Assembly (NCBI RefSeq): GCF_007993035.1
Contig: NZ_VOOS01000005.1
Span: forward strand, 62,001-126,000
DNA length: 64,000 bases
DNA from: Vicingus serpentipes
GTDB lineage: Bacteria; Bacteroidota; Bacteroidia; Flavobacteriales_E; Vicingaceae
Reading direction: 5' to 3'
Shown: positions 21,129 to 36,807 of the stretch, piece by piece
Layout: each line of letters begins with the position of its first letter
Position numbering within the stretch: position 1 is the stretch's first letter
Notes under the pieces: model-generated
Databases searched by the model: none
What the model was told of the DNA's origin: nothing
Seen by the model: only the letters and a program-made list of their open reading frames with translations
Translations under genes and position numbers: made by a program

Positions 21129-24100
21129 ATGAGTTTAAAAAAATACTTTCTTTTTATAATCGCAATTTTATTAGTTAACTTAGGTTTTGCGAACGATTTT
21201 TATTGGGTTGGGAATAGTGGAAATTGGAACGATGCATCACATTGGTCAGCATCTAGTGGAGGAAATGGAGGGATAGGTATACCTACTCAATCAGACAATG
21301 TAATTTTAGATGAAAACTCATTTAAAAAAAATGGAGAATTAACAATTAATGGTAACGTTTATTGTAATAGCTTCACTTCTTCAACTAAGAAAAACTTAAC
21401 TATTTCTGCTAACAATTCTGCTAGCCTTAAAATAGGAAAAGATTTTATCGTAAATGAAAAATTCAACAACAACTTTTTAGGGAGAATTATTTTCGTTAAC
21501 CCTACTCAAATTGCCGATATAAATGCTGGAGATTCTCAGTTTTATGGTGATATTGAATTTAATGGAGCCGGAACTTGGCACTTAAAAAGTAATTTATTTT
21601 TACAGGAAACTAATTCCTTAGTTTTTGAAGAAGGAACCCTTCTAGCCAACAATGTTACTATACTTACAGGCTCATTTGAAATTAATAAGAATAAAACCCA
21701 AAAATTAGAATTAATCAAGTCTAATTTTCATGCAGTAAACAAGTTCGATTTAAAAAATTCTACCACTTTTGATTTAGTTTCAACTAATTCAAACATATTC
21801 ATTAATAGACATGCTTCTAAAGCGAACATTAATACTTCAAGTTTAAACAAAAACTTATTTACATTTGGAGAAAGCACTGTAATGAAAACTTGTGGCGACA
21901 TGGGGTTAGCTGTTACGGCTACTGTTCTATCCGACTACAATTCCTTTGGTGTTTCATGTGATGGTGTTTGTGATGGTATTGCTTATGTTACTATTACTGG
22001 AGGTGTTGGCCCATTCGTAGTGAACTGGGTAGGATACGGAACACTTAATGACCCTGACACCTTACAAAACGCTTGTCAAGGTAACGTTGGGGTTGAAGTA
22101 ACCGATCAAGGTCAAAATCCACCTTTTGGAAGCCAATGTGCTGCTCAAATTTTAATTTCAAATCCTATTGAACTAACTCTAAATGTTATAGGCACAATAG
22201 ACCCAACATGTTTTGGAGATTGTGATGGAGGTATTGGAACTAGTATTAGCTTTGGTGTTCAACCTTATGATATTGCTTGGTCTGGCCCTGGAATTACCCC
22301 AGCCGATACAAACTCATCTATTTTAAACAAATGTAATGGTGCTTACGATCTGACTGTTATAGATGCTAATGGATGTCAAATTGATAGTACTTTTAACATC
22401 ACTGAACCTCCAAGGGTAACTTTTAATTTAGATAGTATAGGAATAAATTGCTTTGGAGATTGTTCTGGACAAGCACTGGCAACTAATGTCGCTGGAGGTA
22501 ATGGAACTCCTTATTCTTATCTTTGGGATGACCCTAGCGCTCAAGTTACTCCAACTGCAAGTAACCTTTGTGCTGGATTTGTTTCTGTTACCGTTACTGA
22601 TCCTCAGAACTGTTCTGCAACAGATAGTATTGAAATTATTGAACCTCTTCCTTTAACATTCAACTCTAGCTTCCAACCAGTATCTTGTGGCGGTCTTTGT
22701 GATGGATCTATTACATCTACAGTTACAGGAGGTGGTGTTGGACCTTATACTCACCATTGGAGTAATGGAACTATTGATGTTGGTGCCTCATCAACAATTG
22801 GTTCGTTATGCTTTGGGACATATACCGATTCAATTGTAGATGCAAATGGTTGTGATACTGTTTTTACTTTTACTATAATTGAACCTACTCCTTTAATTAC
22901 TTCTACAAATTTTAGTGATGTTAATTGTTTTAGTGCTTGCGATGGATTTGCTGTAACTAATACTTCTGGAGGTAATACTCCTTACAGTTATGTTTGGTCA
23001 TCAATTCCTGCTGGTCAAGTAAATACTGGACAAGGAACTGATTCAATTTCTGGCTTATGCCCTGGTCAATACATAGTTGACATCACTGATTTTAAAAATT
23101 GTACTGTTTCTGATACCGTTACAATTACAGAACCTGATTTACTTGTTGTAAACCCAAGTTCAACTGACATTTCCTGCCCTGGATTTTGTAATGGAACAGG
23201 AACTGCTGCACCAACAGGAGGAACAACGCCTTATACTTATAATTGGACAACAGTCCCTCCTCAAAATACACAAGGGGTTAATAGTTTATGTCCTGGTACA
23301 TATTTCATAACAGTTACTGATTCAAACTTATGTGTAAGCACAGATAGTATTGTAATTGTTGAACCTATACCAATGGTTCTAACTATGAATAGTACTGACA
23401 TGAGTTGTAATGGCGTATGTGATGGTACAGCAGATGTTGGAGTCGCTGGAGGAGTAACACCTTATACTTATGTATGGTCATCAGTTCCAGCTGGTCAAGT
23501 TACTACTGGGCAAGGTACTAATGCTATTTCAAATTTATGTGACGGAACTTATACCGTAACCGTTACCGACAGTAATAATTGTACTATTAATAATAATACA
23601 GTTGTTATTGAACCAAACCCTATTACTGTAAATTTAACAACTGTTGATCTATCTTGTAATGGAGTTTGTAATGGTTCTGCAAGTGTTTCTCCTAGTGGTG
23701 GTAATTCTCCATACACTGTATCTTGGAATGGAGGACCTTTTACTGCTGTAACATCAATTTCTGGATTGTGTGCAGGCCCACAAATTGTTGATGTTAGAGA
23801 TAATAACGGATGTATTGAAACTGTCAACTTTGATATTAATGAACCAACTTTACTAACAACAACTACATCAGGAACAGATTTACTTTGTAATAGCGTTTGC
23901 TCTGGAACTGCAAATACAGCTCCAATTGGTGGTACTGCTCCATATAATTATACATGGACTGGGCCTGGAGCTCCATTTACAAACACTCCTTCCCTTACCA
24001 ATTTATGTGCTGGCACTTACTACATTACAATTACTGATGATTCCTTATGTACTGTTTTAGATTCTATTATCATTACTGAACCTCTTCCAATAGACGCAAA

Positions 24101-27100
24101 CGCACAATCAACTGACATGAGTTGTAATGGTGTGTGTGATGGAACGGCTATTTCGTTGCCAATTGGAGGTACTGCTCCTTATAATTTTTCATGGTCTCCA
24201 GGCGGAGCTAACTCTCAATCCTTATCCAACTTATGTAATGGTCAATTCATTGTTACAGTTACAGACTTCAATAATTGTATAGATTTAGATACTGTTATTG
24301 TTGATAACCCTCCACTTTTAACAGTAAACGCAACTAGTATTAATGCAAGTTGTGGTGCTATCTGTGATGGTACAGCTTTAGCTACTCCAAATGGAGGGAC
24401 ATCACCATACTCATACCTATGGAGCAATTCTGACACAACACAATCATCTGGTAATTTATGTTCTGGATCATATGATGTAACTATTACTGATGCTGCAGGA
24501 TGTACAGCTAATGACAACGTTGTAATTGACAATTTAATTATAATTAACATTACTACTAATTCAATTGGAATAAGTTGTAACGGCTTATGTGACGGAGAAG
24601 CTACTGCTAACCCTTCTGGAGGAGCAACCCCATATCAGTTTAGCTGGAATACAGTGCCTGCACAAAACAATCAAACTGCAACAGGTCTTTGCCCCGGAAA
24701 TTATGAAGTTACAGTTACAGATTTAAATGGTTGTGCATCAACAGAAACTGTTAACATGCCTATTGACCCGTCAGTATTAGTTCCTAATGGAATAGCCACA
24801 AACGTTTCTTGTAATGGAGATTGTGATGGTACTTTGGCTTCGGCACCAACTGGTGGTGTACCTCCATATACTATTGTTTGGTCGGTTGCCGACACAAACA
24901 ATGTCTGCCCTGGAACTTATACCGTTACAGTTACAGACTTTAATAATTGTTCTCAAACCGATACTTTAAGAGTAAATGAACCAGATTCAATTAGTACTAA
25001 TCCCTCTATTTCACATGTAACTTGTAATGGAAATTGTAATGGAACTATTACTTTAAATGCAACTGGTGGGACAGGAACTTTATCATACCTATGGGCACAT
25101 GACAGTTCTACAAATCCAGACCTAACAGGTTTATGTGCGGGAAATTATTCCGTAACTATTACTGATTCAACAAATTGTTCAAGAGTTTTTGATTTTACTA
25201 TTACAGAACCTTCTGCTTTAACTGCGACCCCTTTAAGTACAGACGTTAGTTGTTTTGGGGGTAGCAATGGTACTGCTTCTGTTCTGGTAGGCGGAGGAAC
25301 AACTCCTTACACCTATTTTTGGTCTCCAGGAGGTCAAAACACTGATACTATATTTGGACTTTCACCTAACACCTATACTGTTACAATTACAGACAGTAAC
25401 AACTGTATTATCAATCAAAATGTTGTTGTTGATCAACCAAATCAACTACTTGCAAACCTAACAGGAACAACAATAGCATGTAATGGAAATTGTGATGGAA
25501 CAGCTATCGCAACTCCATCTGGCGGTACTTCCCCATACGATTACAACTGGACATTTAATGGAGCTTCAACTCCTTCTATTGGGCTACTATGCGTAGGAAC
25601 TTATACTGTTGAAATAACTGATGATAATGGCTGTACTGTTACTGACAGTTATGATGTAACTTCTCCTGCTATGTTAGCTGTAACTCTTGACAGCACTAAT
25701 ATAACATGTAATGGCAGCGATAATGGGACAGGTACAGTCACTCCAAATGGAGGAACTCCTCCATATACTTATCTTTGGGTTACAAGCAATCAAAACACTC
25801 CAACTGCAACTAATTTAACTCCTGGCATTCATACCGTTACAGTTACTGATTCTTTGGGCTGTTTCTTTACAGGTTCTATAAACATTCAAGAACCAGCAAT
25901 TATTAGCACAAATGAAACTGTAACTGACGCAAATTGTGGTTTTAATGATGGAGTTATTAGTACTAATCCTTCAGGGGGTACTCCTCCTTATACTCACTCA
26001 TGGTCAAGTGGGCAATCATCTCCTACAATAAGCAACTTAGGGGTAGGTTTTTACACAGATACAATTACAGATTTTAATGGATGTTCTGAAGTTTTCACTT
26101 TCGCAATAAGCAATCCAACTGGACCAACTGGAGTTACTGCCACAGTTAATGATGCTTCTTGTTTTGGCTCTTGTGATGGGAATGCAAATGTTATACCTAT
26201 TGGAGGTACTCCAACTTATGGATACTTATGGTCTGGAGGCGAAGTTGATTCTACAATAACTGGTCAGTGCGCTGGAACTTATAGTTTAACTATAACTGAC
26301 GCTTTAAATTGTGTATTAAACACCTTTGTAGTTATAGGAGAAGCTGACAGTATAACAGCAAACTTATTAACTACTAATACTAGCTGTAATTCATCTTGTG
26401 ATGGAACTGCAAGTGTCACTCCAAGTGGAGGAACTGCTCCTTATGATTATTTATGGTCTAATGGTTCTACAAGTTCTTCAGCTTCTGGATTATGTGCTGG
26501 ACCAGCTAGCGTAATTATTACAGACCATAATGGTTGTAGTAAAACAATAAACTTTGATATTACAAGTCCAAACACTATAGTATTAGCAACATCATTTACA
26601 GATGCTTTATGTAATGCTTCCTGCGATGGAACAGCAACAGCAATTGTTTCTGATGGAACTGCACCTTATAACTACTTATGGGATGATGGTTTATCACAAA
26701 CTACTCCAACAGCTACCGGATTATGTTCCGGAAATTACAATGTAATTGTTACTGATAATAATGGATGTTCTGCGAATGCTTCAGTATTTATAGACGAACC
26801 TTCTTTAATAAGCCCAAATGAAGTTATAACTGATGCGACTTGTGGTGCAAATGATGGAAGTGCAATCCTTACTCCATCAGGAGGAACTTCAGGTTATACT
26901 TATGTATGGAGTAATGGACCTACAACACCTAATGTAGGTGGTTTAAGCGCAGGCACTTACACAGTTGATATTACTGATGCCAACAACTGTACACAATCAT
27001 TCCCTATTGCAATTAGCAATGTAAATGGACCAACTATAAATACTACTCAAAATAATGCTTCATGTAATGGTGTTTGTGATGGAGATGCTAATGTTTCTAT

Positions 27101-30100
27101 AAATTCTGGAACTCCTAATTATGATATCTTATGGACTCCAGGTAACCAAACAACATCTTCAATAACTGGTTTATGTGCTGGTAATTACACTGTTGAAGTT
27201 ACAGACGGTTTAGGATGTATTACAACTCAACCTATAACAATTAGTGACAACACTTTAATTACATCAACTATCACAACTATAGATGCTACTTGTAATGGTT
27301 CTTGTAATGGTTCAGCATTAGTAGTTCCTTCAGGTGGAGTTCCTCCATACCAATACAATTGGAGTACTGGCCATACTACTAATGGTGTTGGAGGATTATG
27401 TGCTGGTAATTATTCCGTAACAATAACTGATGATCTAGGTTGTTCTATTACTGAAAATATTAATATCTCTGAATCTAGTTTATTAAATATAACTCCATCA
27501 GTTATTGACGCAAACTGTAATGGAGGGTGCGATGGTGAAGCATTAGTTAGTGTAACGGGCGGAACCGCTCCTTTCAACTATACTTGGTCGAATGGAGCAA
27601 GTACCCCTAATATTGTTGGGTTGTGTGCTGGTAATTATGATGTCATTGTTACTGATATTAATGGTTGTTTGGGTACTCGTTCTTTAACTGTTGGTCAAGG
27701 AACAGCGATTACAGCTACAATTACAAGTAATGATGCTACTTGTGGAATTTGTGATGGTGATGCCACAGTTTCTCCAGCTGGAGGATCAGGAGCTCCTTAT
27801 GATATTTTATGGTTGCCATCTGGACAAAACACTCCTAATGCAACAAACTTATGTCCAGGAGCATATAGCGTAGAAATAACAGATAATGTAGGTTGTTCAG
27901 AAACTGTAAACGTGTTGATAAGCAACCCAAATGGTCCTGATATTACTACCGAGGCAGATAGTGTTTCATGTTTTGGAACATGTGATGGAAATACTTGGAC
28001 AACTATAAATTCAGGTACTGCCCCATACATCTATCAATGGGATGATATATTATTACAATCAAATGATACCGCTAACAGCTTATGTGGAGGTTTATATAAT
28101 GTTGTCGTTCAAGATGCTAATGGTTGTATCTCTGTAGATTCTTCTAGAGTATTTGAGCCAGAAGAAATTTTAGCAAACATTACTTCTACACCTATAAACT
28201 GTATTGGAAATTCAGACGGAACTGCAACAGCAAATCCAACGGGTGGAATTGGAAATTATCAATATACATGGAATACTATACCTGTTCAAAATTCACAAAC
28301 AGCTACAGGCTTAGCAGTTGGAACTTATACCGTAACCATTACTGATGACAATAACTGTTCAATAATAGATAGTGTTACTATTACTTCTCCAACCTTAATA
28401 GATATAACAATTAGCGCAACAAGTGCAACTTGTAATGGAGATTGTGATGGGACAGCATTAGCTACGGCATCAGGGGGCAATCCTCCATACCTTTATACTT
28501 GGGATGATGCTTTAACTCAACAAAACTCATTAGCTGCAGGTTTATGCTCTAGTTTATATACAGTTACCGTTTCAGATAATAACGGCTGTACAGTAACAGA
28601 TACTGTTACGGTTCCTAATCCAACTACACTGTCGACTTCTTCAGTTCAGACTCCTGTTAATTGTTCTGGAAATTGCGATGGAACAATTACAACTAATCCA
28701 GTTGGTGGTGTAGCTCCTTACAATTTTGTATGGAGTGATGGCCAAACTTCACAAACAGCTACAGGATTATGTGCTGGAACTTACAATGTAGTAGTCATAG
28801 ATGCAAACAATTGTACAACTTCTGATACAATCATTTTAACTGATCCTTCAACTATAAATGATAGTACAACTATTAATGGACCTACTTGTGGTTTATGTGA
28901 TGGCGATGCAACAGCAAATCCAGTTGGAGGCGTTGGCCCTTATACCTATTTATGGGGAGATGGACAAACAACACAAACAGCTGTTGGGTTATGTGCTTCA
29001 ATCATTACTTTAGAAATTACAGACCAAGGTACTGGTTGTGTTTATAATTTTAATGTAATAGTAAATAATATTACCGGGCCAAACACAACAATAACTAGTA
29101 TAGATGAAACTTGTACATCTGCATGTAATGGTTCTGCAACTGTTAGTGCAAGTGGAGGTTTAGCTCCATATTCTTATACTTGGAATACATCTCCAGTACA
29201 AACAGATTCAACAGCAATTGGGTTATGTACAGGAAGCTACAATGTAACTATTGAAGATGCTCAAGGTTGTATCTCAATTGATACTGTTACAATTGGAACT
29301 AATGGATTGAATTTATCTATTACCAATGTAACACCTGAGAGTTGCTATGAAAACTGTGATGGTGAAGCGACTGTAGTTGTAGGTTCTGGAACTTCTCCAT
29401 TTGTTTATCAATGGACGCCTACAAGTCAATCAAACCCAACAGCAACTGGATTATGTGTTGGGACTTATCTTGTAACTGTTACGGATAATTTAATTTGTTC
29501 TGATTCTATTAGTACAAACATTACTGGACCAGACTCAATAAGTGTTTCTATTATTACAAATACACCTATTGGTTGTAACGGAGTTTGCGATGGACAAATT
29601 ACGGCTTCAGTAACTGGAGGTTCTTTACCTTATCAATATACTTGGGATAATGGAGAAACAACTCAAACCATTTCTAACTTATGTGCAGGAACTTACGTTG
29701 TAACGATAACTGATGCTAACGGTTGTACCAATTCAGCAACAGTAACTTTAACTGAACCTAATCCTATCGTGGCTAACGAAAGTTTAGTTCTTCCTTCATG
29801 TAATCAATGTAATGGAAGTATCAGTTTAGCTCCAAGTGGAGGAATTGGACCTTATTCGTTTGTTTGGTCTAATGGTCAAAGTACAAATCCAATTATTAAC
29901 TTATGTGCCGGTGCTTACACAGTAACAATAACAGATAATGCAACTGGATGTTCGACTATTGCTCCAATTGCTTTAAGCAATAGTAATGCACCTCAAACAA
30001 ATGTAACAGCAACACCAATTAGTTGTAATAATGTTTGCGATGGTGAATTAACATCTACTCCAACTGGAGGAACAGCTCCTTATAACTATTTATGGAATCC

Positions 30101-31409
30101 AACAGGACAAACAACTCCAACGGCAACTGGGCTATGTACTGGTATTTACACTTTAGAAGTAACTGATGATTTAGGTTGTATTGGTGTCTCAATAGATACT
30201 TTAGCAGAACCTCAAACTTTTACTGCTAACATTACTGCTGATGACATTTCATGTAACGGATTATGTGATGGGTGGGCAGTAGTAAATCCTATTGGAGGAA
30301 CTACTCCATATCAAACAGCAGTTTGGACTCCTGGCAGTATGGCAATAGATTCTATTACTAATTTATGTGCAGGTACTTATTTTGTATCTGTTGCAGATGC
30401 AAATGGATGTAATGCAATTGATAGTGTTACAATTTCAGAACCTACAGCAATAACTATTAGCTCTACTTCAGTAGATGTAACTTGTAGTGCTAATTGTGAT
30501 GGAAGTGCAAATGTTAATCCTTCGGGAGGAATTGGTCCTTACTTATATTCTTGGTCACCAGGTGGGCAAACTACAAGTAATCCAACAGATTTATGTTTAG
30601 GATTGAACACTGTAACAGTGACTGATCAAAACGGCTGTACAATGATAGACGTGATAACTACAGCTGCTACAGACACAATTGATGCACAAACAGAAGTAGA
30701 TTTTAATGCTTGTATTGGAGCTCCTTTCAACTTAAATGGAATTACTACAGGAAATGTAAATTCTGTTGAATGGTTTGCTATTCCAGGAATGATTTCTATT
30801 GGAACTTCTGACACTGTAATAGTTAACCCAACTACTACAGGAGCATTCCAATACGTATTTGAAGCAAGCGGTGCTTGTAATGATTTTGACACAATTACAG
30901 TAACTATAGAAGCTTTACCAATAATTGATGCGGGTCTTAATGTCACAATTATTGAAGAAACTAGTACTGTATTAAATGCAACTGGAGGAGTTACTTATAC
31001 TTGGTCTCCTTCTGCTGGATTAAGCGATTCTACAATTTCTAATCCAACAGCAACACCTCTAGTTACCACTACTTATTATGTAACAGGCACTAGCATTAAT
31101 GGTTGTATTGCAACAGATAGTGTAACGGTAACAGTTATTCCAACTATTCAATTCCCTGATGGTATCACACCAAACGGAGATGGTAAAAATGATACTTGGG
31201 TAATTGATTACATCGACCAATATCAAGATGCAGTTGTAGAAATTTATAATCGATGGGGTGAATTGTTATTCCACTCTGATGATTACCAAAACGATTGGGA
31301 TGGAACTTATAATGGAGAAAATTTACCTATTGGAACTTACTACTACATTATAGATTTAAAAGATGGTAAAACTGAAGCATTTACTGGTCCATTAACAGTA
31401 TTAAGATAA
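21129..31409 (+). CDS. Giant secreted adhesin with 38 SprB-type repeats and a gliding-motility-associated (CHU_C) C-terminal domain
   Basis: A 3426-residue protein with a signal peptide (about 1-21, ending LGFAN). An N-terminal region (about 22-270) begins FYWVGNSGNWNDASHW, a motif common at the start of large Bacteroidota surface proteins. Next come 38 tandem SprB repeats of about 75 residues with consensus CNGxCDG...GGTxPYxYxW...GLCAGxYxVTVTDxNGC, a PKD-like region (about 3180-3330), and a CHU_C/type B T9SS sorting domain (ITPNGDGKNDTW ... NRWGELLF ... NLPIGTYYYI). In Flavobacterium johnsoniae SprB is the mobile gliding adhesin moved on the cell surface after T9SS export. The repeats have almost no Lys/Arg and are Asp/Thr-rich. 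The next gene encodes a PorP/SprF protein, the usual partner of type B cargo. Whether this strain glides cannot be told from here. Confidence 0.95.
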   Translation: MSLKKYFLFIIAILLVNLGFANDFYWVGNSGNWNDASHWSASSGGNGGIGIPTQSDNVILDENSFKKNGELTINGNVYCNSFTSSTKKNLTISANNSASLKIGKDFIVNEKFNNNFLGRIIFVNPTQIADINAGDSQFYGDIEFNGAGTWHLKSNLFLQETNSLVFEEGTLLANNVTILTGSFEINKNKTQKLELIKSNFHAVNKFDLKNSTTFDLVSTNSNIFINRHASKANINTSSLNKNLFTFGESTVMKTCGDMGLAVTATVLSDYNSFGVSCDGVCDGIAYVTITGGVGPFVVNWVGYGTLNDPDTLQNACQGNVGVEVTDQGQNPPFGSQCAAQILISNPIELTLNVIGTIDPTCFGDCDGGIGTSISFGVQPYDIAWSGPGITPADTNSSILNKCNGAYDLTVIDANGCQIDSTFNITEPPRVTFNLDSIGINCFGDCSGQALATNVAGGNGTPYSYLWDDPSAQVTPTASNLCAGFVSVTVTDPQNCSATDSIEIIEPLPLTFNSSFQPVSCGGLCDGSITSTVTGGGVGPYTHHWSNGTIDVGASSTIGSLCFGTYTDSIVDANGCDTVFTFTIIEPTPLITSTNFSDVNCFSACDGFAVTNTSGGNTPYSYVWSSIPAGQVNTGQGTDSISGLCPGQYIVDITDFKNCTVSDTVTITEPDLLVVNPSSTDISCPGFCNGTGTAAPTGGTTPYTYNWTTVPPQNTQGVNSLCPGTYFITVTDSNLCVSTDSIVIVEPIPMVLTMNSTDMSCNGVCDGTADVGVAGGVTPYTYVWSSVPAGQVTTGQGTNAISNLCDGTYTVTVTDSNNCTINNNTVVIEPNPITVNLTTVDLSCNGVCNGSASVSPSGGNSPYTVSWNGGPFTAVTSISGLCAGPQIVDVRDNNGCIETVNFDINEPTLLTTTTSGTDLLCNSVCSGTANTAPIGGTAPYNYTWTGPGAPFTNTPSLTNLCAGTYYITITDDSLCTVLDSIIITEPLPIDANAQSTDMSCNGVCDGTAISLPIGGTAPYNFSWSPGGANSQSLSNLCNGQFIVTVTDFNNCIDLDTVIVDNPPLLTVNATSINASCGAICDGTALATPNGGTSPYSYLWSNSDTTQSSGNLCSGSYDVTITDAAGCTANDNVVIDNLIIINITTNSIGISCNGLCDGEATANPSGGATPYQFSWNTVPAQNNQTATGLCPGNYEVTVTDLNGCASTETVNMPIDPSVLVPNGIATNVSCNGDCDGTLASAPTGGVPPYTIVWSVADTNNVCPGTYTVTVTDFNNCSQTDTLRVNEPDSISTNPSISHVTCNGNCNGTITLNATGGTGTLSYLWAHDSSTNPDLTGLCAGNYSVTITDSTNCSRVFDFTITEPSALTATPLSTDVSCFGGSNGTASVLVGGGTTPYTYFWSPGGQNTDTIFGLSPNTYTVTITDSNNCIINQNVVVDQPNQLLANLTGTTIACNGNCDGTAIATPSGGTSPYDYNWTFNGASTPSIGLLCVGTYTVEITDDNGCTVTDSYDVTSPAMLAVTLDSTNITCNGSDNGTGTVTPNGGTPPYTYLWVTSNQNTPTATNLTPGIHTVTVTDSLGCFFTGSINIQEPAIISTNETVTDANCGFNDGVISTNPSGGTPPYTHSWSSGQSSPTISNLGVGFYTDTITDFNGCSEVFTFAISNPTGPTGVTATVNDASCFGSCDGNANVIPIGGTPTYGYLWSGGEVDSTITGQCAGTYSLTITDALNCVLNTFVVIGEADSITANLLTTNTSCNSSCDGTASVTPSGGTAPYDYLWSNGSTSSSASGLCAGPASVIITDHNGCSKTINFDITSPNTIVLATSFTDALCNASCDGTATAIVSDGTAPYNYLWDDGLSQTTPTATGLCSGNYNVIVTDNNGCSANASVFIDEPSLISPNEVITDATCGANDGSAILTPSGGTSGYTYVWSNGPTTPNVGGLSAGTYTVDITDANNCTQSFPIAISNVNGPTINTTQNNASCNGVCDGDANVSINSGTPNYDILWTPGNQTTSSITGLCAGNYTVEVTDGLGCITTQPITISDNTLITSTITTIDATCNGSCNGSALVVPSGGVPPYQYNWSTGHTTNGVGGLCAGNYSVTITDDLGCSITENINISESSLLNITPSVIDANCNGGCDGEALVSVTGGTAPFNYTWSNGASTPNIVGLCAGNYDVIVTDINGCLGTRSLTVGQGTAITATITSNDATCGICDGDATVSPAGGSGAPYDILWLPSGQNTPNATNLCPGAYSVEITDNVGCSETVNVLISNPNGPDITTEADSVSCFGTCDGNTWTTINSGTAPYIYQWDDILLQSNDTANSLCGGLYNVVVQDANGCISVDSSRVFEPEEILANITSTPINCIGNSDGTATANPTGGIGNYQYTWNTIPVQNSQTATGLAVGTYTVTITDDNNCSIIDSVTITSPTLIDITISATSATCNGDCDGTALATASGGNPPYLYTWDDALTQQNSLAAGLCSSLYTVTVSDNNGCTVTDTVTVPNPTTLSTSSVQTPVNCSGNCDGTITTNPVGGVAPYNFVWSDGQTSQTATGLCAGTYNVVVIDANNCTTSDTIILTDPSTINDSTTINGPTCGLCDGDATANPVGGVGPYTYLWGDGQTTQTAVGLCASIITLEITDQGTGCVYNFNVIVNNITGPNTTITSIDETCTSACNGSATVSASGGLAPYSYTWNTSPVQTDSTAIGLCTGSYNVTIEDAQGCISIDTVTIGTNGLNLSITNVTPESCYENCDGEATVVVGSGTSPFVYQWTPTSQSNPTATGLCVGTYLVTVTDNLICSDSISTNITGPDSISVSIITNTPIGCNGVCDGQITASVTGGSLPYQYTWDNGETTQTISNLCAGTYVVTITDANGCTNSATVTLTEPNPIVANESLVLPSCNQCNGSISLAPSGGIGPYSFVWSNGQSTNPIINLCAGAYTVTITDNATGCSTIAPIALSNSNAPQTNVTATPISCNNVCDGELTSTPTGGTAPYNYLWNPTGQTTPTATGLCTGIYTLEVTDDLGCIGVSIDTLAEPQTFTANITADDISCNGLCDGWAVVNPIGGTTPYQTAVWTPGSMAIDSITNLCAGTYFVSVADANGCNAIDSVTISEPTAITISSTSVDVTCSANCDGSANVNPSGGIGPYLYSWSPGGQTTSNPTDLCLGLNTVTVTDQNGCTMIDVITTAATDTIDAQTEVDFNACIGAPFNLNGITTGNVNSVEWFAIPGMISIGTSDTVIVNPTTTGAFQYVFEASGACNDFDTITVTIEALPIIDAGLNVTIIEETSTVLNATGGVTYTWSPSAGLSDSTISNPTATPLVTTTYYVTGTSINGCIATDSVTVTVIPTIQFPDGITPNGDGKNDTWVIDYIDQYQDAVVEIYNRWGELLFHSDDYQNDWDGTYNGENLPIGTYYYIIDLKDGKTEAFTGPLTVLR
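21945..30650 (+). repeat. In-frame tandem array of 38 SprB-repeat coding units
   Basis: Thirty-eight units of roughly 215-245 bp each encode a repeat starting at a Cys-x3-Cys-Asp-Gly motif. Units 18, 22, 26, 31 and 35 form a second type, with a shortened CGx(x)DG-like start and an end reading ISN.NGP instead of I.EP. That gives a higher-order period of four to five units (about 0.9-1.1 kb). Copies are diverged at DNA level, so the array is old rather than recently amplified. Confidence 0.9.
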
Positions 31410-31416
31410 TTTGAAC

Positions 31417-32340
31417 ATGAGAAAAATACTTTTAATATCATTTTTATTACTAAGTGGAGGATTGTTGTTTTCTCAACAACTTCCTCACTTTAGTCAATAT
31501 TATTTAAATGATTTTTTAATAAATCCGGCTATCGCTGGTACTCGCCCTTATTTTGAAGGTAAATCGGCACACCGATACCAATGGGAAGGAATTACAGATG
31601 CCCCTAGAACTTATACACTAAGTGCTCATGGGCCAACCAAAAATCAAAAAATGGGGTTGGGAGGTTATTTATTTACCGACAATGTTGGACCTACTAGAAG
31701 AACTGGCTTTAATTTAGCTTATGCCTACCACTTAAAAATAAATCAAAAATTAAACTTATCGTTAGGTTTATCTGCAGGTATTTTACAATTTATGATTGAT
31801 GGCTCTAAAATTACCTTACGTGAGGAAGATGACGACATCATTACGAATGGCGTGCAATCTACCTTAATACCAGATGCTGGTTTTGGTTTGTATTTATACC
31901 ACGAAAAATATTACTTCGGTTTTTCTGCACCACAACTATTAAACAATAAGATTAACTTTTTTGAAGATGGTAGAAACCCAACTGGAACTTTACCAAGTCA
32001 CTTTTTTGCAACAGCAGGTTATAACTTACAATTAAATGAGGATTTCACCTTGCAACCTTCTGTTTTTGTAAAATATGTAAAACCAGCACCTATTCAGTTT
32101 GAAGGAACATTAAAAGTATTATACAAAAACAAATTGTGGTTAGCGGGTACTTACCGTGATAAAGATGCAATAACAGCTTCGTTAGGATACTTAATAAACG
32201 ATAGTTTTACTGTTGCCTATGCTTATGATTTTACAACCACCAATCTAAGGAACTATAGCAATGGTACGCACGAGTTGTTAGTAGGTATTCGTTTTTACAG
32301 TTTTGCTCCTAAAAAAGATTCTGAAGCTTCTTTTGAGTAA
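31417..32340 (+). CDS. PorP/SprF family type IX secretion outer-membrane protein
   Basis: From the ATG at 31417 (a TTG two codons earlier is possible) this is 307 residues. It has a signal peptide ending LLFSQQ and the PorP/SprF signature FSQYYLNDFLINPAIAGT, followed by a 14-strand-type barrel. SprF-like proteins are needed for surface delivery of SprB-like cargo; the gene starts 8 nt after the adhesin stop codon, so the two form a cargo-partner pair. Confidence 0.93.
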   Translation: MRKILLISFLLLSGGLLFSQQLPHFSQYYLNDFLINPAIAGTRPYFEGKSAHRYQWEGITDAPRTYTLSAHGPTKNQKMGLGGYLFTDNVGPTRRTGFNLAYAYHLKINQKLNLSLGLSAGILQFMIDGSKITLREEDDDIITNGVQSTLIPDAGFGLYLYHEKYYFGFSAPQLLNNKINFFEDGRNPTGTLPSHFFATAGYNLQLNEDFTLQPSVFVKYVKPAPIQFEGTLKVLYKNKLWLAGTYRDKDAITASLGYLINDSFTVAYAYDFTTTNLRNYSNGTHELLVGIRFYSFAPKKDSEASFE

Positions 32341-33348: not shown

Positions 33349-36300
33349 TTAGAAAAACGCTCTTACCTGCACTCCTCCAATATGTATTATTTTAGCGTCA
33401 TTCGATTTTCGCCCATTATAATTTAAACTTAATTGCATATGTTTCGATAGATTTTGTTGAAACACCAATTCCCATGTGGTATTTGAACCTTGCTGCAAGC
33501 CTTCTAGCATTTCATAATTTAAGCTCTCGTTATTTATTATGCTCTTGTATTTATTTTCAATAAAATTAATACTAAACAAAAAACTTCCTTTTGATGCAAT
33601 ATTATATCGAAACTCGCCTCCTACTTTGTTTGCTTTTAATTCTTGCCCCCCTAAAAATTCATCATTGTATTTCTCTTTGTATTTATACAAAATCGTAATT
33701 CGAAATTTTACATTTGGTTGTATTACCAATTTGGGTTCCGCTTCATAATTTGTTAAATAGTAATTTTGATTGGTAAAAAATTGCGATTTATTGTTTTTTA
33801 CTCCATTAGCTAAGGTTGTATTAAAGGTTATTATTCGAGTCAAATTCCACCTAACTTTTAGCGTTCTAATAAAATATCTTCTCGACTCTTTTCCATTAGT
33901 TAACAAAGATTTATCTTGATTATCTTGATAAGTAAAGTCGGCACTCCAATTGGTATTTGTTCGATTAAAATAAATGGTATTTAAAAATCCTAAATTAAGG
34001 GTAACCAAACTACTATCATCTACACTTCCTATAAAAGGATTGTAATAATCTGTTTTATCAGATACTTTACGAGCTACTCTGTAATTAGTACGGTTTGAAA
34101 AACGCGACAAAAACTTTTTAACACCCTTGCCTGTTCCCCATTGTGTTTCCGGATTTAAAAACAACCCTTGATTAAAATCGTTGGTGTAAGTTCTTACGTA
34201 ATCGTTAGTTGGTGTAAATATTTTAATAAAATTAGCTTGATCCTGAAATGCCGCAACTTCAAATTCATTTAAATCATTAACTCCATTTCCATTTAAGTCT
34301 CCTAAATAGGCATGTGTACCTTGCCCTGGCTGAACCTCTGCATAAGAAAATTCTCTTTTTACCTCAAGCCCAGAGCCAACTTGATAATAAGTATTTAATG
34401 TAATTGCACTTTTTAGCAACTTCCCTACATATTCTAATCTTGATAAAACATTTTCATCAGGCTGAATTGCAGATAAAGTAGGCTCGAGAATTTCTAATTT
34501 ACGATAAGTAAACTTTGTTCTTAATATATGATTTTTGTTTTTCAACCAATCATACCCAATGGCAACATCTTCTGCTTTTGTAGTTGGTATTAGTTGATTA
34601 ATCAGCGGAACATTATCAGTTCGCTGCTGGTAGCTCAACGTGTATTTGTTAATAGAAGTATCCGCATTTTGTAAAAACGATTTCCAAACTAAAAACTGAT
34701 AACTATTTGCTTTTAAGGTATCTGATAAATTGACCAAAAATTTATTTTGCTCAAACTCTTCTTCTGCACCTAATACAAACCAACCTAAATTTTGAGTTAA
34801 TCTTAACTTATTTCTAAAAAACCTTGTGTTTTGTAATCCATCAGTATATAAAAAGCTACCACTACCAATAGCATTAAACCCATTTAGGTTATAATTAAAA
34901 TTCACATTATTTTTAACTCCTTTATATTCATTAATATTTTGTAAAACATCAATTTGATAAACTAGACTTGCTTTTTTTTCTTTTTCAATTCCTAAATGAA
35001 CTTGCCCTAAATGCTGGTCAGAAAACAAAGTTAAATTAGATGTGTTCCAATCTCGTTGAAATTCAATATTTCTGAACGGACCAAGAAAATTAAAATCCTT
35101 ATCAACAAATTCATAACCTCCACCAACAAGCATTTGCCAACCTTTTTCTTGAGTATTATCTATGCTAACTTTATTAATAGAGTTTACCTTAAAAGCATAA
35201 CCGATGTTATCTTCACCATCTAATGTAGAAAATGTGTTTTTATCATAATTTGATAATGCTCCTTCCCAACTAATAATTGATTTATCAGAAAACTTATACG
35301 ATCCACCCAAAGTGGTTACTTGTAATTTTTTAGGGCTAATCAATAAAATAACAGGTTCAAAATTTCCTTGAGGAATACCGCCAACAGGAGCAACCCACTC
35401 ATATACTTTTCCATTAGCTGAACTCTGTATTTGGACATAATTTCCATTATTAGCTCCTACTTGAGAAAAACCTAATTGATAAATTGCAGAATCAGGATTT
35501 GTTGAATACACAAAAACAGAATCATACCCTAAAGTATCTATCATTTGATAGAGTACTTTGTTTTCAGAAAATTCTACAGCAGTAAAATTTGGTACTACAG
35601 CTTTTTGCAAACTATCTCCAACATTAGCTAAAACTAACTTTTGCTCATTTGTTAAATCCTGTTGTAGAGGTTGGTCTTTTAAATCTTGTTCTGAATAAAT
35701 ATTGAAATCCAGTTTTAATTTTTCACTCTCATATTCAGTATTAAAATGATAAATCGTACGTGAATAATTCCTGTCCGAATATTCAAAAGTTACAACTATC
35801 CTTTTATCTTTTGTAATTAAAAAATTAGCTGTAAAAGTTATCTCAGAAGTATTGTAATCAATTACATAATCAAACTCATTACCTCTCTTTAATAATTGAC
35901 CATCAACAAAAACTTGTTCTGTACCAGATAGCACTACTATAAAAGTTTCGTTATCATTCCCTTTTAATCGATATGGCCCCTGATTCCCTTCTATTCCAAC
36001 AAACTGATTTCTTGCAAATTTTCCTTTTGCAATTGCTGCACTAATATAGGGTGTTAATATTCTGTTTTCATTTTTTTTACTTGGCTGTAACGCAATTTCA
36101 AAACTTCCTCCTTTTGCTTTCTTATTGTAATTTAAAAAATAACTCTTAGGTTGCTTCATAAAAAAATCTCCCGCAGTAAGCCTCCATTGATCATTAAATA
36201 ATTGAATAAAAACGTTGTCAAAATCTTGTAATTGTTGCGTGTTCCCTTCTGCTTGAATAGGTATATTTTCATCTGATATTGAGGCTAGAATGCTAATATC

Positions 36301-36807
36301 ATTGGTAACTTTTCCTGACAACTGAAGATTTAAGCTGGAATTTACGGCCAAATCTTGGTTATTTCCAAAAGTTACTCCACGAGAAATACTTCCACTTTTA
36401 TTTAATCCATTTAAATAAAAAACATCCTCAGTCGCTGGAACATACTCAAATAAAAATGGGTTTTTAGATACCGGATCATACCGTTCTATTTGACCTATTT
36501 TTTTATGTTCATAGGATGTTGAAAAGGAAACTGGTAAAACTCGATAAGAAATTTTAACCTTTTTATTTAAAATTGAAGGATTTTTAACACGTAAAATTGA
36601 TGCCCCATAATCTATTTCATAAAACGAATTATTAATTAAAACATCATCTAAATAAAGTAATTCAGACTGAGGAACAATTGCTAAACTATCTAAAAAAACT
36701 GAATCTGAAGATAAGGAAATAATAGCAACCTTAAAATTACTTAAAGATTGGGCTTCAATAAGATATGGTGATAAAAGAACAAATAATATGTAAATAAATT
36801 TCTTCAA
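33349..36807 (-). CDS. Large outer-membrane beta-barrel protein, conserved Bacteroidota type
   Basis: A 1152-residue protein with a signal peptide (KKFIYILFVLLSPYLIEAQ). The N-terminal half (about 20-370) is beta-rich, with SGKVTNDISILASISDENIP and GDFFMKQPKSYFLNYNKKAKG. This layout, together with the later alternation of short aromatic-ended strands up to a C-terminal Phe-Phe, recalls SprA-like translocon proteins, but at half their length. An EF-hand-like loop (DLNGNGVNDLNEFE, around residue 836) may bind calcium. I cannot assign a function. Confidence 0.75.
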   Translation of the reverse strand: MKKFIYILFVLLSPYLIEAQSLSNFKVAIISLSSDSVFLDSLAIVPQSELLYLDDVLINNSFYEIDYGASILRVKNPSILNKKVKISYRVLPVSFSTSYEHKKIGQIERYDPVSKNPFLFEYVPATEDVFYLNGLNKSGSISRGVTFGNNQDLAVNSSLNLQLSGKVTNDISILASISDENIPIQAEGNTQQLQDFDNVFIQLFNDQWRLTAGDFFMKQPKSYFLNYNKKAKGGSFEIALQPSKKNENRILTPYISAAIAKGKFARNQFVGIEGNQGPYRLKGNDNETFIVVLSGTEQVFVDGQLLKRGNEFDYVIDYNTSEITFTANFLITKDKRIVVTFEYSDRNYSRTIYHFNTEYESEKLKLDFNIYSEQDLKDQPLQQDLTNEQKLVLANVGDSLQKAVVPNFTAVEFSENKVLYQMIDTLGYDSVFVYSTNPDSAIYQLGFSQVGANNGNYVQIQSSANGKVYEWVAPVGGIPQGNFEPVILLISPKKLQVTTLGGSYKFSDKSIISWEGALSNYDKNTFSTLDGEDNIGYAFKVNSINKVSIDNTQEKGWQMLVGGGYEFVDKDFNFLGPFRNIEFQRDWNTSNLTLFSDQHLGQVHLGIEKEKKASLVYQIDVLQNINEYKGVKNNVNFNYNLNGFNAIGSGSFLYTDGLQNTRFFRNKLRLTQNLGWFVLGAEEEFEQNKFLVNLSDTLKANSYQFLVWKSFLQNADTSINKYTLSYQQRTDNVPLINQLIPTTKAEDVAIGYDWLKNKNHILRTKFTYRKLEILEPTLSAIQPDENVLSRLEYVGKLLKSAITLNTYYQVGSGLEVKREFSYAEVQPGQGTHAYLGDLNGNGVNDLNEFEVAAFQDQANFIKIFTPTNDYVRTYTNDFNQGLFLNPETQWGTGKGVKKFLSRFSNRTNYRVARKVSDKTDYYNPFIGSVDDSSLVTLNLGFLNTIYFNRTNTNWSADFTYQDNQDKSLLTNGKESRRYFIRTLKVRWNLTRIITFNTTLANGVKNNKSQFFTNQNYYLTNYEAEPKLVIQPNVKFRITILYKYKEKYNDEFLGGQELKANKVGGEFRYNIASKGSFLFSINFIENKYKSIINNESLNYEMLEGLQQGSNTTWELVFQQNLSKHMQLSLNYNGRKSNDAKIIHIGGVQVRAFF

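Follow-up and report, generated by a model that had tools for sequence, protein, structure and literature searches.

The SprB-repeat protein encoded in the window (the whole stretch of 64,000 nucleotides that was analysed) very probably forms a surface filament, exported by the type IX secretion system (T9SS), of about 40 Ig-like domains that are held by two kinds of disulfide bond. One would lie inside a domain, between the second and third of the four cysteine positions of the repeat (C2–C3), and the other would join neighbouring domains, from C1 of one repeat to C4 of the next (C1(i)–C4(i+1)). The original prediction had placed two bonds, C2–C3 and C1–C4, within the same repeat; we found that the C2–C3 half of that reading is strongly supported and that the C1–C4 half is not. 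The distinction was drawn from cysteine covariation across adjacent repeats, which can separate intra-domain from inter-domain bonds, and the resulting staple scheme predicts bonds one by one for the whole family from sequence alone. In the portion of the open-access literature that was searched, no earlier disulfide assignment was found for SprB repeats, in agreement with the original prediction, and none was found for inter-domain disulfides in bacterial Ig chains.

The repeat protein and its cysteines

The protein is encoded by a single open frame and contains 147 cysteines (Table 1). Its membership of the SprB repeat family (PF13573) is indicated by a profile match of 691 bits against a curated cut-off of 28, in 24 significant stretches, together with 38 tandem Ig-like repeats. 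A C-terminal CHU_C domain, an adjoining PorP/SprF gene and the presence of SprA in the genome identify it as a T9SS substrate. The repeat family, CHU_C and an adjoining PorP/SprF are common to this protein and to the SprB family that includes the gliding adhesin of Flavobacterium johnsoniae, whereas the window protein has an optional C2–C3 pair in 33 of its 38 repeats. In gliding SprF, twin cysteines bond to GldK, linking SprF to the track (PMC12635249). The PorP/SprF adjoining the window protein differs in having no cysteine, so that this mode of attachment is not expected here, and the twin-cysteine SprF that marks the gliding adhesin SprB proper is lacking next to this gene. Within the window, an open frame for 1152 aa on the minus strand (33349–36807) gave no Pfam match at E 0.001.

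Table 1. Positions of the protein, its domains and selected cysteines in the window
Feature	Position	Strand	Basis or remark
SprB-repeat surface protein, 3426 aa	21129..31409	+	single ORF; PF13573 SprB E 1e-213; PF13585 CHU_C E 2e-26
Cys255, 22 residues ahead of C1 of repeat 1	21891..21893	+	proposed partner of C4 of repeat 1 (Cys337); bookkeeping
38 Ig-like SprB repeats, mean period ~77 aa	21912..30689	+	repeat alignment; AlphaFold2 of repeat 24 and of repeats 16-18
Repeat 15, without C2 and C3	25206..25433	+	repeat alignment
Repeat 17, without C2 and C3	25662..25889	+	repeat alignment
Repeat 18, without C2 and C3	25890..26114	+	repeat alignment
Repeat 22, without C2 and C3	26796..27017	+	repeat alignment
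Repeat 28, without C2 and C3	28155..28385	+	both present here in 7/7 collinear relatives
Domain 39, C1-like Cys3195 and C4-like Cys3250	30690..30932 (approximate)	+	C1 and C4 pattern in 8/8 arrays
Domain 40, C4-like Cys3326 only, no C1	30933..31139 (approximate)	+	pattern in 8/8 arrays
CHU_C type IX secretion signal domain, cysteine-free	31149..31397	+	PF13585, residues 3341-3423
PorP/SprF outer-membrane partner protein, cysteine-free	31411..32340	+	PF11751 E 1e-82; translation without C

The repeat alignment of the window protein agreed with the inventory on which the original prediction had been based. Its limits for the 38 repeats, 21945–30650, were off by no more than about a dozen bases, the first C1 being at 21957 and the last C4 at 30638. 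All 38 repeats have C1 and C4, as had been stated; 33 have C2 and C3 as well, repeats 15, 17, 18, 22 and 28 have neither of the two, and no repeat has just one (33/0/0/5 for both, C2 only, C3 only and neither; Fisher P = 2e-6). The openings and C3 contexts quoted for these five repeats were correct, and the C-x2-C opening reported for three repeats was found in repeats 26, 31 and 35. In addition, a superperiod of four or five repeats was seen at window repeats 18, 22, 26, 31 and 35 and their successors; repeats with the C-x2 opening are followed by repeats with an NGP-like linker start, in line with the A17–B4 coupling described below.

Probable pairing of cysteines within and between repeats

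To avoid selecting for cysteines, the repeat profile was built with the four cysteine columns masked. In other genomes this profile gave C2/C3 counts of 276/8/7/1029 (both, C2 only, C3 only, neither). An extended set, consisting of the other genomes and 48 named contigs, contained 2,050 distinct SprB repeats and gave 363/19/6/1662. The original prediction had called for such a family-wide tabulation of the pair, and in this set all but 25 of the 2,050 distinct repeats were concordant. Where C1 and C4 were also present (1,877 repeats) the counts were 351/7/6/1513, with 13 discordant repeats. Five of these have C3 only and carry a substitute cysteine in the loop that follows the tryptophan strand. 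Another five have C2 only and contain a shifted pair (L148, L152, L168, L170 and L182), in which the cysteine on the C2 side lies three residues further on and that on the C3 side three residues further back, as on an antiparallel ladder (shifted-pair table 5/1/0/2044). The remaining three, in L051, L119 and L179, are real exceptions.

MI-APC ranked C2–C3 as the top intra-repeat pair (z 17.8), on a strand B/E ladder with an index sum peak of 73. Furthermore, when the window protein was compared with its collinear relatives, 14 repeat positions had both cysteines in some arrays and neither in others, without any C2-only state, and the pair is therefore not one inherited subtype. Family covariation, MI-APC and joint switching strongly support the predicted assignment of C2–C3 as an optional bond within the Ig-like domain, in accordance with the dispensable disulfide originally proposed. 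Because most SprB repeats elsewhere lack both cysteines, the bond would be an optional addition, of which this protein has unusually many, and not a default that is occasionally lost. It is extremely unlikely that four-cysteine repeats bond C1–C2 and C3–C4 and re-pair as C1–C4 once C2 and C3 are lost: C1 and C2 do lie only 3–4 positions apart within a repeat, and C1 and C4 would be available to each other once C2 and C3 had both gone, but the +3/−3 register shift of C2 and C3 is that of an antiparallel ladder, C3 keeps a substitute loop partner where C2 is absent, and neither C1–C2 nor C3–C4 is positively coupled, C1 being coupled instead to C4 of the next repeat.

This last coupling was counted in adjacent-repeat tables comprising 1,757 adjacent pairs from 146 ORFs; the hypothesis arose from a list of the repeats without C1 or without C4, and the same data were then counted. 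C1(i) and C4(i+1) gave 1686/5/35/31 (both, C1 only, C4 only, neither), with 31 joint absences against 1.35 expected (OR 299, P = 6e-43). In the reverse direction, C4(i) and C1(i+1), the OR was 3, and C1 and C4 of the same repeat were independent in this set (OR 1.0, P = 0.72). Four of the five pairs with C1 present and C4 absent have a cysteine just past the aligned end, and a tolerant placement changed the table to 1700/1/28/28; the strict table is the fairer of the two, because the tolerant placement was defined after the exceptions were known. Under tolerant placement, C4(i+1) was still there in 28 of the 56 pairs in which C1(i) was missing (cases occur in L036, L141, L159, L161 and L187), and since C4 is thus kept about half the time, an unpaired C4 appears to be tolerated. 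The joint absences come from 18 ORFs, some of them close relatives, and the count-based P values overstate independence because tandem repeats share history.

Shared history also offers an explanation of its own, namely that common descent of tandem repeats alone makes cysteine states covary. Neighbours do resemble one another in C2/C3 status (C2(i) with C3(i+1), OR 34), and the arrays contain superperiods of four or five repeats. However, we consider this highly unlikely, since common descent hardly accounts for so strong a coupling of C1(i) to C4(i+1) beside the much weaker ratios in the reverse direction and within a repeat, or for joint C2/C3 switches at 14 positions between collinear relatives. 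Permutation within ORFs, which controls for array composition, yielded on average 7.0 joint absences of C1(i) and C4(i+1) and never more than 16 in 20,000 permutations, against the 31 observed. In plain MI-APC, C1(i)–C4(i+1) ranked seventh among inter-repeat pairs, and those ahead of it reflect the shared composition of neighbours. When the reverse direction was subtracted it ranked first (z 11.3), followed by A17–B4 and A17–B2, which are interface pairs of the residue beside C1 with the start of the next repeat.

Structure prediction gave a confident Ig-like model of repeat 24 (AlphaFold2, pLDDT 95.4) and a model of repeats 16–18, two of which lack C2–C3, with pLDDT 94.3 and pTM 0.65. In the strand order of the repeat 24 model, C1 comes after strand A and C4 before strand G. 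Judging from this order, C1 and C4 of one domain should lie at its opposite poles, and C1 should meet C4 of the next domain across the junction. The essential C1–C4 disulfide within one repeat that had been proposed beside C2–C3 is very unlikely. Both cysteines occur in every window repeat, and repeats usually have an even number of cysteines (2 or 4), as that scheme would have it, but across the family the loss of C1(i) is unrelated to that of C4(i) and goes with that of C4(i+1), permutation within ORFs yielded fewer joint absences of C1 and C4 of the same repeat than expected (9 against 15.6), and the predicted poles are opposite. The covariation strongly supports C1(i) and C4(i+1), in neighbouring domains, as the probable bond partners.

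Array ends and the number of proposed bonds

The ends of arrays tend to follow the C1(i)–C4(i+1) rule. C1 was missing in 51/379 repeats without a detected C-side neighbour, against 66/1838 otherwise, and C4 was missing in 45/379 repeats without a detected N-side neighbour, against 36/1838. When the ends were inspected by eye, the first repeat just after the signal peptide was often found to lack C4 (L046, L063, L105, L140 and L149). In L162 the first repeat keeps C4 and a cysteine lies just upstream of the repeat; L145 is an exception, its array beginning just after the signal peptide with a first repeat that keeps C4. Cys255 of the window protein has a counterpart at the same place in the relatives L107 and L115, and the CHU_C domain, at the other end, is cysteine-free in 8/8 arrays compared.

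These assignments allowed the cysteines of the window protein to be accounted for. The proposed bonds would be Cys255 with C4 of repeat 1, 37 staples between successive repeats, Cys3119 (C1 of repeat 38) with Cys3250 in domain 39, Cys3195 with Cys3326, and 33 C2–C3 bonds. These 73 proposed bonds take up 146 of the 147 cysteines, and the one left over is Cys79 in the N-terminal region. The expectation of more than 70 cross-links thus survives with the corrected pairing. The spacing from C4(i) to C1(i+1) is 24–26 residues, and exactly 25 in 33/37 cases, whereas the spacing from C1 to C4 within a repeat varies from 46 to 60.

Further cysteines were seen outside this scheme. Domain 39 of L101, L102, L107, L110, L114 and L115 has a further cysteine pair, of the ICYVY/VCITY type, that is wholly absent in the window. 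In the L153 array, and also in L167, extra covarying cysteines occur in strands A and G (both present in 39 cases, one alone in 7 and 18, neither in 1986) and are likely to form an additional bond, most of the 39 coming from one array.

A proposed double cable and related structures

We infer that the cysteines are oxidized, that the pairs are bonded and that the bonds have a mechanical role. C2–C3 would be optional and would tie the beginning of strand B to the end of strand E within a domain. The other bond would run from C1 of domain i, behind strand A, to C4 of domain i+1, ahead of strand G, and would staple the neighbours together. A shortcut path could then run from C4(i) through 25 residues to C1(i+1), across the disulfide to C4(i+2), and onward. 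Odd and even segments would in this way form two interleaved covalent cables. At 0.36 nm per residue, a cable has a computed contour of ~9.6 nm for every two domains, whereas the unfolded chain without staples would measure ~55 nm. The length of two folded Ig domains is ~8 nm, and because the cable comes close to it, the filament should be nearly inextensible under load. SprB-type filaments are described as very long adhesins (about 200 nm) for whose movement substantial force is needed (PMC12635249); inter-domain staples, if true, would explain the resistance of so long a chain to unfolding. For Bacteroidota as a whole, the chances seem to us evenly balanced that SprB-repeat filaments are double covalent cables, with C1(i)–C4(i+1) staples, domains tuned by C2–C3, and force transmitted almost without extension.

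The pairing could also be right with the staples serving chiefly to protect against proteolysis or to space the domains, and not to bear load, which we regard as possible but rather unlikely. Extracellular repeats generally meet proteases, and with the cysteine-free PorP/SprF of the window the twin-cysteine link to the track (PMC12635249) is not expected. On the other hand, the stapled segments keep a near-constant length of 25 residues, in contrast to the variable remainder of the domain, as would suit load-bearing cables, although a constant segment could also follow from packing.

Enzymes that might introduce the bonds were sought by profile search. VKOR, DsbB and Thioredoxin_4 had no match in the 99.9% complete genome in the search for these three families, DSBA gave a sub-threshold fragment match only, and VKOR was present in 1/46 family genomes. 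Flavobacterium johnsoniae does form SprF–GldK and PorG–GldK disulfides (PMC12635249).

Structural comparison of repeats 16–18 gave as the best three-domain match among solved chains 9FLW, from GhpA, the grappling hook protein A of Aureispira (Z 11.3, rmsd 5.3 over 217 residues). Other GhpA fragments (9FLP, 9FLS, 9FLU, 9FLV, 9FLX and 9G8B) also rank high; their Z of 8.3–9.1 is tied with that of unrelated Ig chains, at lower rmsd. These other fragments align to repeats 16–18 at 5–7 Å, whereas unrelated three-domain Ig chains mostly need 7–16 Å. GhpA repeats have a cysteine at the C4 position, the sequence similarity being weak (profile E 3e-4) and the alignment spanning the C4 side only. The solved GhpA structures may already show the inter-domain staple, which would lower the novelty of the scheme and confirm its mechanism. 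PKD and other Ig-like bacterial domains (ColG PKD, PrtV PKD1) share the same general fold by AlphaFold2 and VIA-align, with Z about 7, a value common for Ig-like folds in general. Matches to the three-repeat model in BFVD were predicted phage and giant-virus proteins annotated as 'SprB repeat' or carrying a Por sorting domain.
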